A DNA stretch of 64,000 bases, taken from positions 1 through 64,000 of the forward strand of contig NZ_ATVA01000018.1 in assembly GCF_000420485.1 (NCBI RefSeq), given 5' to 3'. Source of the stretch: Paucidesulfovibrio longus DSM 6739. Its GTDB lineage: Bacteria; Desulfobacterota; Desulfovibrionia; Desulfovibrionales; Desulfovibrionaceae. Position numbers and translations under genes: made by a program. The notes beneath the pieces were generated by a model, which searched no databases, was not told the origin of the DNA, and saw only the letters and a program-made list of their open reading frames with translations. This document shows, in pieces, positions 5,814 through 43,560 of the stretch. Each line of letters opens with the position of its first letter. Position 1 is the stretch's first letter.

Positions 5814-6212
5814 TCAGGCCACGGCCAGCAGGTTGCGGCTCGTCTGGTTCGCGGTCGGGGAAAGGGCGTTCTGGTAGGCGCGCAGTCCGTTGCGGCGCTG
5901 GGGAGGAATTCGGGAGAGCGTTTCGGAAGCGGCGCTGCCGACCATTTCGTTGCGCAGGGAGGCGGTTTCCAGGGACTGGTCGAAGCCGGAACGCGCCGCG
6001 GAGCGAGCCTTGGGCGCGGGTTCGAGCTGGACGTCCTCGGCGGTGTAGGTCAGGCCGAAGCTGCCGAGCTGGAACCCGAAGGTGCGCGTGCGCACGCGGG
6101 CCTTGGCCGGGGCGTCCGACGCGGCGCGCGCGGCTTCTGTCGCCGCGGCCTGGGCGCTGCGGGCGTATTGCTGGGTGATCTGGGCGCTGCGGCCTGTGAT
6201 GGCGGCTGTCAT
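5814..6212 (-). CDS. Unknown protein, Ala/Arg-rich
   Basis: The product is 132 aa from the ATG at 6210-6212, which has GGACAGGA upstream. The N-terminal 50 residues form a likely amphipathic helix rich in Ala and Arg; the middle has beta-type pattern (F-G-F-Q-L-G-S-F-G-L-T-Y); the C-terminal part is polar with S/T/N/Q. There is no signal peptide, membrane segment or cysteine. The helix-then-sheet order and the motif around residue 60-70 do not point me to a known family. The gene begins 57 bases after the terminator of the predicted small RNA, so a read-through transcript could link the two. Confidence 0.6.
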   Translation of the reverse strand: MTAAITGRSAQITQQYARSAQAAATEAARAASDAPAKARVRTRTFGFQLGSFGLTYTAEDVQLEPAPKARSAARSGFDQSLETASLRNEMVGSAASETLSRIPPQRRNGLRAYQNALSPTANQTSRNLLAVA

Positions 6213-6269: not shown

Positions 6270-6299
6270 AAAAAAAGCCCGACCCCAAACGGCCCGGCT
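6270..6299 (-). terminator. Strong intrinsic terminator of the predicted small RNA
   Basis: On the minus strand AGCCGGGCC pairs with GGTCGGGCT (one mismatch, one G-U) around a GTTTGG loop, followed by seven T residues at 6276-6270. It reads only in the minus direction. No coding region ends in front of it, which is why a noncoding transcript is proposed. Confidence 0.85.
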
Positions 6300-6383
6300 G
6301 TCCTCGCGCCGTTGCGCGACCATCCCTGAAGGAAGCCCGGTGCGCCTCCGTTCCCTGGAGGCAGGGGACGAAACGTCCCCTTA
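6270..6383 (-). ncRNA. Predicted small RNA (~114 nt), function unknown
   Basis: A near-consensus promoter (6391-6419) points at this stretch and a strong terminator ends it, with no open frame between. The RNA would begin at about 6383-6381 and fold at once: GGGGACG/CGTCCCC with a TTT loop; GCCTCC/GGAGGC with loop AGGGAAC; a weaker middle fold; TCGCGC/GCGCGA with loop AACG; then the terminator hairpin. GGA triplets recur in loops and linkers (AGGGAAC, CAGGGATGG, CGAGGAC), a pattern seen in CsrA-binding RNAs. I cannot match it to SRP RNA, tmRNA, RNase P RNA or a common riboswitch. It could alternatively be an attenuator leader for the gene at 5814-6212. Confidence 0.65.
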
Positions 6384-6390
6384 GTCAATC

Positions 6391-6419
6391 TTTATACTCC
6401 TTCGGCATGGGCCTGGCAA
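6391..6419 (-). promoter_or_regulatory. Sigma-70 promoter for the predicted small RNA
   Basis: On the minus strand TTGCCA (-35, 6419-6414) and TATAAA (-10, 6396-6391) are separated by exactly 17 bp; each matches consensus at 5 of 6. The start would fall near 6384-6381, at the first base pairs of the RNA's 5' hairpin. Confidence 0.7.
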
Positions 6420-6428: not shown

Positions 6429-6498
6429 TAACAGGGTTGCCAAGGGCCTTGCGAAAACGTAGATTCCCCTTCCCCCAATATTAAGCAGGAAGGCTTTG

Positions 6499-7344
6499 AT
6501 GTACAAAATCGTGAATAAGCGGTCGCTCATTCCCGGACAGACCAGCATGCTCGTGATCGAGGCTCCCCAGGTGGCGCTCAAGGCCGAGCCGGGGAACTTC
6601 GTCATGCTCCGCGTGCACGAGCAGGGCGAGCGCATTCCCCTGACCATCGCGGACGCCGATCCCGAAGCCGGGACCATCACCCTTGTTTTTCTCGTCGTCG
6701 GCAAGACCACGGCCCACCTCGATTCCCTGGAGGAAGGCGACAGCCTCCAGGACGTCTGCGGCCCCCTGGGCAGGCCCACGGAAATCGAGAGCCGGGGCAC
6801 CGTGGTCTGCGTGGGCGGCGGCACGGGCGTCGCGGCCATGCACCACATCGCCAAGGGACACGCCCGCGCCGGGAACCGGGTCATCGCCATCGTGGGCGCG
6901 CGCTCCGAGAGCCTGCTGCTCTTCTGCGACGAGCTGGCGGGCTTCTGCCCGGAGGTGCGCATCGCCACGGACGACGGCAGCCGGGGGCACAAGGGCTTCG
7001 TGACCCAGGTGCTCCAGCGGCTCATCGACGAGGGCGAGGAGATCGCCGAGGTCGTGGCCGTGGGTCCGGTGCCCATGATGCGCGCCGTGGCCGAACTGAC
7101 CCGGCCTTACGGCATCAAGACCACGGTCAGCCTGAACTCGATCATGGTGGACGGGATCGGCATGTGCGGCGCGTGCCGGTGCAGCGTGGGCGGGGAAACC
7201 CGGTTCGCCTGCGTGGACGGCCCGGAATTCGACGGCCACGAGGTGGATTTCGACGAGCTTTGGCGTCGCCTGGGCCAGTTCCGCGAGCAGGAGGCCGTTT
7301 CCAGGGAACATTTCCATCAGTGCCGCTGCGGGGAGAGCAAATGA
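6499..7344 (+). CDS. nfnA: NADH-dependent ferredoxin:NADP+ oxidoreductase, small subunit
   Basis: The product is 281 aa, the FAD/NAD-binding subunit of the electron-bifurcating NfnAB complex (also called sulfide dehydrogenase subunit). NfnAB couples NADPH oxidation to reduction of ferredoxin and NAD+. An N-terminal flavin domain with R-I-P-L-T-I precedes an NAD-binding domain (GGGTGVA near residues 110-116). A C-terminal [2Fe-2S] motif has Cys 223, 226, 228 and 238. The ATG at 6499 follows AGGAAGG with 5-base spacing; a TTG one codon earlier is less likely. The stop overlaps the nfnB start by four bases (ATGA), so translation is coupled. Plant-type dihydroorotate dehydrogenase electron-transfer subunits are similar, but the partner settles the call. 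Confidence 0.93.
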   Translation: MYKIVNKRSLIPGQTSMLVIEAPQVALKAEPGNFVMLRVHEQGERIPLTIADADPEAGTITLVFLVVGKTTAHLDSLEEGDSLQDVCGPLGRPTEIESRGTVVCVGGGTGVAAMHHIAKGHARAGNRVIAIVGARSESLLLFCDELAGFCPEVRIATDDGSRGHKGFVTQVLQRLIDEGEEIAEVVAVGPVPMMRAVAELTRPYGIKTTVSLNSIMVDGIGMCGACRCSVGGETRFACVDGPEFDGHEVDFDELWRRLGQFREQEAVSREHFHQCRCGESK

Positions 7345-43377: not shown

Positions 43378-43560
43378 ATACCCCTGGGGAGTTGGTGATT
43401 GTCCGATGGTTTTTGAGCCAATGTATTCAAAAAGGGATCCAAGCCCAGGCCAACCCCTGTGCATGCCCGGCCTTGCCGGGAAGCCTGACGGTGGCCGGCG
43501 GAGCCCACCTGGTCAAACCAGGTTCAAAACTGACGGCAACACGGCCTCCCGGGGCTCCGT
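43378..43560 (+). ncRNA. ssrS: 6S RNA
   Basis: This ~183-base segment behind zapA has the 6S outline: a terminal stem made from CCCCTGGGGAG and CTCCCGGGG near the two ends, a large open bubble, and internal hairpins GCCCGGCCTTGCCGGG and ACCTGGTCAAACCAGGT. The middle reads like E. coli 6S (GCATGCCCGG, AAGCCTGA, then a hairpin before GTTCAAAACTG). 6S RNA binds the housekeeping RNA polymerase holoenzyme in stationary phase. Exact ends are approximate. Confidence 0.8.

Follow-up and report, generated by a model that had tools for sequence, protein, structure and literature searches.

In the 64,000-nt stretch of Paucidesulfovibrio longus DNA analyzed here (hereafter the window), a gene that we take to be nfnA diverges from a second gene, ORF132, and the region between them carries two putative promoters and a structured element (Table 1). 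Judged by NfnA, the nearest named relatives are Desulfovibrionaceae, such as Desulfovibrio sp. STF2_139, Pseudodesulfovibrio and Humidesulfovibrio. A preliminary description of the element had proposed a promoter and a U-rich terminator without giving a strand. A coordinate check placed all features of the element on the minus strand, reading from 6419 to 6270, and recovered both the TTGCCA-17-TATAAA promoter and the U7 terminator there. A simple promoter/terminator scan, which demands T at the sixth -10 position, missed this promoter, and the terminator was also absent from its output; the evidence for both predicted signals is their conservation. Recurring short blastn matches had hinted at a sigma-54 promoter on the plus strand (GG-N10-GC, 6404–6419), a candidate that we rejected because the minus-strand sigma-70-type pair is kept in relatives.

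Table 1. Features of the ORF132–nfnA intergenic region and flanking genes (window coordinates).
Feature	Position	Strand	Remarks
ORF132, 132 aa, gene under putative control	5814..6212	-	frame starts 57 nt past U-run
Leader RNA	6270..6384	-	assumed start near 6384 to end of U-run, about 115 nt
Intrinsic terminator with U7	6270..6298	-	folding and coordinate check
P3 3' strand, GGACAGCCGG	6294..6303	-	doubles as 5' arm of terminator
P4 hairpin, CGCGC-AACG-GCGCG	6305..6318	-	double changes in 4/5 pairs across 29 relatives
Second GGA motif, CAGGGAUGG	6320..6328	-	putative second CsrA site; GGA here in 28/29 aligned relatives
P3 5' strand, CCGGGCUUCC	6331..6340	-	R1 alignment and folding
Hairpin A, GCCUCC[AGGGAAC]GGAGGC	6344..6362	-	equivalent of P2 of the c-di-GMP-I aptamer; putative first CsrA site
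Extra 5' hairpin, GGGGACG-UUU-CGUCCCC	6364..6380	-	outside modeled core
Sigma-70-type promoter	6391..6419	-	-35 TTGCCA 6419–6414, 17 bp, -10 TATAAA 6396–6391
Divergent nfnA promoter, TTGCCA-17-TAGATT	6437..6465	+	outside element; sequence pair also in G001, G002
nfnA, divergent neighbor	6499..7344	+	outside element; NF004862, 402.9 bits, cut-off 220

ORF132 matched no Pfam or NCBIfam family above cut-off, and its single-sequence predicted fold was poor (pTM 0.27). Homologues (E 1e-4) occur in 111 of the 288 genomes of the family and adjoin nfnA in several relatives. At five loci with non-adjacent nfnA, the neighbors of ORF132 are mixed (Pyr_redox/TrkH, DUF3536, PhoH/PIN, MCP-HNOB, CdhD and an exonuclease) and gave no function. 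In the window, the ORF132 ATG is preceded by AAGGACAGGACGC. The element had been described as free of open frames, which is strictly wrong: a 169-aa frame that opens at ATG 6323 crosses the leader in frame with ORF132, although the part of it kept in relatives begins only at about ATG 6212.

The putative transcript is predicted to be structured, as had been claimed for it. It folds to -55.6 kcal/mol, compared with a mean of -45.75 kcal/mol for dinucleotide shuffles (z = -2.83; 2 of 200 shuffles equal it), and the three GGA motifs originally quoted are present as AGGGAAC (6356–6350), CAGGGATGG (6328–6320) and CGAGGAC (6306–6300). An RNA cut short of the terminator folds into hairpin A, P3 and P4 (-46.2 kcal/mol), whereas the full-length RNA folds the terminator instead of P3. 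A full-length RNA that retains both P3 and hairpin A is 7.2 kcal/mol less stable; hairpin A is open in the full-length minimum fold, and forcing it costs 2.2 kcal/mol. In these predictions, the alternative folds are laid out as a P3 antiterminator against a terminator. The hairpin A loop of the window copy has 7 nt, compared with the ANGGAN hexaloop of most relatives, on a stem of six or seven pairs, and the second GGA site has a weak stem.

By blastn over 99 genomes, the full element was found only in its own genome and was absent even from the other two genomes of the genus. Relatives nonetheless carry upstream of ORF132, in the same order, a sigma-70-type promoter, a hairpin and a structured stretch, with a U-run after these in several genera. 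Our set of 110 leaders comprised the 111 ORF132 matches minus G223 and G232, plus G030. In 91 of these, a TTGN(C/A)(A/T)-17-TANNNN promoter is followed, no more than 70 nt past the assumed start, by a GGA-loop hairpin; this looser test has no shuffle control, and 19 leaders fail it. The hairpin lies about 30 nt past the assumed start (median of the 91). We then built a covariance model, R1, from 29 leaders chosen for diversity, with the window excluded. RNAalifold alone gave a P3 unlike that of the c-di-GMP-I aptamer (see below), and the covariation test used the aptamer structure drawn by hand. Under this structure 91.7% of cells were paired, compared with 83.6% when shuffled and at most 54.4% when slid, a figure biased in favor of the structure because it was drawn on the tested sequences. 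Double changes were seen in 57 cells compared with 18.4 when shuffled, so that the comparison across relatives that had been suggested as a check revealed covarying stems.

The same changes bear on whether the inverted repeats, which sit between two divergent promoters, could instead be bound, as DNA, by a regulator of the nfnAB promoter. The stems of hairpin A vary with compensation (GCUUCC/GGAAGC, UUCCC/GGGAA, CUCC/GGAG, GUUUCC/GGGAAC and others) around an unchanged GGA loop, the reverse of the behavior expected of a DNA palindrome. The hairpin also accompanies ORF132 at loci from which nfnA is absent because it lies elsewhere (G007, G011 and G033). We consider the DNA-site reading highly improbable.

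The best R1 match in the 64-kb window was the element itself (6370–6271, 26.8 bits, E 1.4e-7; next match 11.3 bits, E 0.059), with an E-value of 8.1e-6 in a search of all 288 genomes; the calibration was short, so these E-values are rough. The score of 26.8 bits is no higher than many cross-matches of R1 to ordinary c-di-GMP-I riboswitches, and the identity of the window copy as an ORF132 leader therefore rests on the model and synteny together. R1 gave 53 matches of at least 45 bits in the 288 genomes, and 52 of them sit no more than 400 nt upstream of ORF132. At the 53rd (G281; L319 379–1644), the leader RNA and ORF132 are separated by a DDE_Tnp_ISL3 transposase gene. Strong aptamer-type matches occur in 52 of the 111 genomes with ORF132.

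This distribution indicates that the leader is linked in cis to ORF132 and is probably not the free-standing, novel small RNA first proposed. A trans-acting RNA that sequesters CsrA in the manner of CsrB or RsmY, with the terminated leader titrating the protein whether or not it also has a cis role, is nevertheless an alternative to weigh. Like CsrB, CsrC, RsmY and RsmZ, the element has GGA-loop hairpins and its own promoter and terminator, two of its GGA sites lie about 30 nt apart, and a terminated product would build up whenever attenuation occurs. However, it has only two or three such sites and is linked in cis to one gene, and several genera keep the hairpin with a scarce or absent U-run (for example 0 of 7 hairpin-bearing leaders in genus g10 and 1 of 11 in g25). 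A sequestering role in trans thus seems unlikely.

The preliminary description had read the GGA motifs as the binding pattern of CsrA. Under a strict test (stem of at least 4 pairs; A, GGA and the closing C-G fixed), a C[ANGGAN]G hairpin was found in 81 of the 110 ORF132 leaders. Dinucleotide shuffles gave an expectation of 0.39, and in the stretch farther upstream 3 of 110 passed. Comparison thus bears out the pattern for the leader class, but the window copy, with its 7-nt loop AGGGAAC, is among the 29 leaders that fail the strict test. At 80 named loci, including some from genomes without ORF132, the strict hairpin was present on the nfnA strand in none and on the other strand in 32. All four bases occur at the first N of the loop, and C, U and A at the last. 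Where the second GGA is present, it lies 30–33 nt from the first in 26 of 28 leaders, the distance in the remaining two having been counted to a nearer GGA; a GGA also occurs in the P3 region of 6 of 31 ordinary c-di-GMP-I riboswitches.

Of the 59 genomes searched, 50 have a CsrA gene, among them that of P. longus (G000:C11:459117-459275; 77.1 bits, cut-off 27). ORF132 is absent from all four family genomes without CsrA but also from 13 of 31 with it, so co-presence says little. ANGGAN is the hexaloop of RsmE complexes, and CsrA acts at riboswitch leaders (PMC7652899, PMC5338858). Extra loop nucleotides can lower RsmE affinity, and most SELEX hairpins have four or fewer contiguous pairs (PMC7652899). 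The leader class resembles CsrA/RsmA target leaders in its C[ANGGAN]G loop and in having two GGA sites about 31 nt apart. It differs in that the putative sites are built into an aptamer-type fold, that hairpin A is distant from the Shine-Dalgarno sequence, that its stems are often longer than those of SELEX ligands and, in the window, that the loop has 7 nt.

The aptamer in question is that of the c-di-GMP-I riboswitch. At gathering thresholds, the only Rfam match in the window was 6S RNA (43378–43559, plus strand; 91.5 bits, gathering score 46.4), and a permissive scan found no member of the c-di-GMP-I clan at the element. A permissive match to anti-hemB at the element (11.5 bits, E 4.2) was dismissed as chance. 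A search of the P. longus genome with c-di-GMP-I-GGC (RF03167) up to E 10 returned 10 matches that did not include the window copy. The Rfam run that had been proposed for this region therefore leaves the window copy itself unrecognized. However, when ten loci were scanned, RF03167 matched the leaders of G021 and G029 (43.5 and 42.3 bits, respectively; cut-off 59), and c-di-GMP-I (RF01051) matched the G006 leader with 26.2 bits against a cut-off of 35; the seven remaining loci had no Rfam match up to E 1. The earlier view that no standard RNA family fits is not supported, because leaders homologous to the element match the c-di-GMP-I clan, albeit below cut-off.

In the RF03167 matches, hairpin A corresponds to the P2 helix of the aptamer. 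P. longus also has two ordinary c-di-GMP-I-GGC riboswitches outside the window, one preceding a frame for an HD_5-domain protein (C18:221076-221150, L321; 73.2 bits) and the other preceding a frame for a TPR protein (C13:335007-335082, L322; 62.5 bits). R1, with which 46 loci were searched, finds these as well, at 22.7 and 16.7 bits, which fits descent of the leader from the c-di-GMP-I clan. The leader class shares with RF03167/RF01051 the P2–P3 architecture, the leader position and the blocks GCCAA, GGAAA, CCACGGG and GCCGGG. It differs in an extra P4 segment with the second GGA, in scores that for the relatives lie below gathering and for the window amount to no match, with an incomplete ligand pocket, and in the loop of P2. 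This loop was GNRA in 31 of 31 ordinary riboswitches, the best-scoring ones, by a loose pattern checked by eye at the 30 best-placed loci plus one more; the ANGGAN pattern of the same test also matched 9 of the 31, in the P2 stem rather than the loop. By contrast, the window and all 29 aligned relatives have an A-N-GGA loop and lack the GNRA loop that docks onto P3.

The pocket of the c-di-GMP-I aptamer includes G20, A47, A48 and C92 in Vc2 numbering (PMC3764141), positions also named in PMC4744006. In the R1 alignment, the window has C at the equivalent of G20 and lacks A48-A49; an alternative hand alignment keeps G20 but places it within a closed helix. The P2 internal loop of the window copy is likewise closed up, and together these features make c-di-GMP binding by the window copy unlikely. 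Pseudodesulfovibrio-type relatives keep G20 and A47–A49 when mapped by hand. In genus g8 (for example L119 and L137), the G20 equivalent reads A in most alignment rows; the G20A change shifts c-di-GMP-I aptamers toward cGAMP.

Two readings of the window copy turn on these observations. In the first, it would be a working c-di-GMP-I riboswitch whose GGA loop is merely a different P2 loop, with CsrA uninvolved. Homology to the clan and the retention of P3 and of its overlap with the terminator agree with this, but the pocket positions are missing in the R1 alignment, the P3-docking loop is missing throughout the aligned leaders, and the GGA-loop hairpin stays in leaders in which no aptamer is visible by eye (for example in g10, g25, G001 and G002). 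We regard a working riboswitch as distinctly unlikely. In the second, the window copy would be a decaying relic without function, in keeping with its missing pocket positions and enlarged loop and with the lack of a visible aptamer or U-run in G001 and G002. Yet the copy still has its promoter and hairpin A, the second GGA, P3 and the terminator, despite DNA divergence beyond the reach of blastn, and we find loss of function very doubtful. A U-run is present at the place of the terminator in the syntenic relatives G006, G009, G029 and G030; its absence from G001 and G002, which belong to the same genus, implies that even members of one genus do not share attenuation.

Our preferred explanation, to which we assign a probability of roughly 0.6, is that the element is a cis-acting transcription-attenuation leader of ORF132, controlled by CsrA and derived from a c-di-GMP riboswitch. 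It draws on the conserved promoter, hairpin and GGA loop, the overlap of P3 and terminator in folding, the cis linkage, the homology and the csrA gene in the genome; from these we infer transcription, binding of CsrA and of ligand, and the direction of their effects. RNA polymerase would start near 6384 and make hairpin A, followed by P3 with P4. As the terminator uses the 3' strand of P3 for its 5' arm, P3 would serve as an antiterminator. If P3 persisted, ORF132 would be transcribed; if it were lost, transcription would stop at 6270 and release a leader of about 115 nt. In relatives with an aptamer, c-di-GMP would favor P3 and read-through. CsrA bound to hairpin A and to the GGA about 31 nt further on could bias the choice between P3 and the terminator, or could act on RNA stability or 5'-end protection. 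Where a genus has no U-run, hairpin A might act on stability, translation or Rho-dependent termination. The leader class is thus perhaps dual-input. Since the pocket of the window copy looks decayed while its CsrA-type sites, P3 and terminator are kept, control by CsrA is the more likely surviving input there.

How such a leader arose can be sketched tentatively, with a confidence that falls somewhat short of even. In the Desulfovibrionaceae, an ANGGAN loop able to bind CsrA may have taken the place of the structural GNRA loop on P2 of a c-di-GMP-I riboswitch, and another CsrA site may have arisen in P3, placing CsrA and c-di-GMP on one fold. The pocket would later have been lost in some lineages, including that of the window, leaving a purely CsrA-controlled leader whose terminated form may feed back on CsrA. 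The switch between motile and sessile life is governed by both CsrA and c-di-GMP. If this scenario is correct, a structural loop of a riboswitch has become a CsrA hairpin and forms a compact gate between the two, offering a view of a riboswitch being converted into a leader under protein control, and the uncharacterized ORF132 family becomes a possible lifestyle gene.

Comparable dual leaders precede moaA of E. coli (Moco) and the thi operon of Legionella (TPP), where a CsrA motif likewise lies in or overlaps a riboswitch-type leader; the Legionella thi leader also has a predicted terminator (PMC5338858, PMC7652899). Those cases involve other aptamers and other bacterial groups, whereas in the ORF132 leaders a CsrA-type loop has taken over the position of an aptamer loop and occurs in aptamer-free leaders as well. 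Among the matches listed in literature searches on CsrA together with riboswitches and c-di-GMP, on CsrA in Desulfovibrio, on Desulfovibrio c-di-GMP riboswitches and on c-di-GMP-I-GGC, titles and opening abstracts describe no ORF132-type leader; the titles listed for the first three show no work on CsrA targets in the Desulfovibrio group. One c-di-GMP-I riboswitch is reported in Oleidesulfovibrio alaskensis G20, upstream of norR (PMC11124144); the terms nfn and GEMM are absent from that paper.

Some leaders depart from the common layout downstream of hairpin A. In L183 (G288), a long insertion lies within the P3/P4 region, and R1 matches the leader in two pieces. In the Humidesulfovibrio-type genus g29 (L224–L228 and L231), the stretch before the U-run repeats the 5' strand of hairpin A, GGCUUCC. 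The 3' strand of hairpin A could there pair with either copy, giving these leaders a different-looking expression platform.
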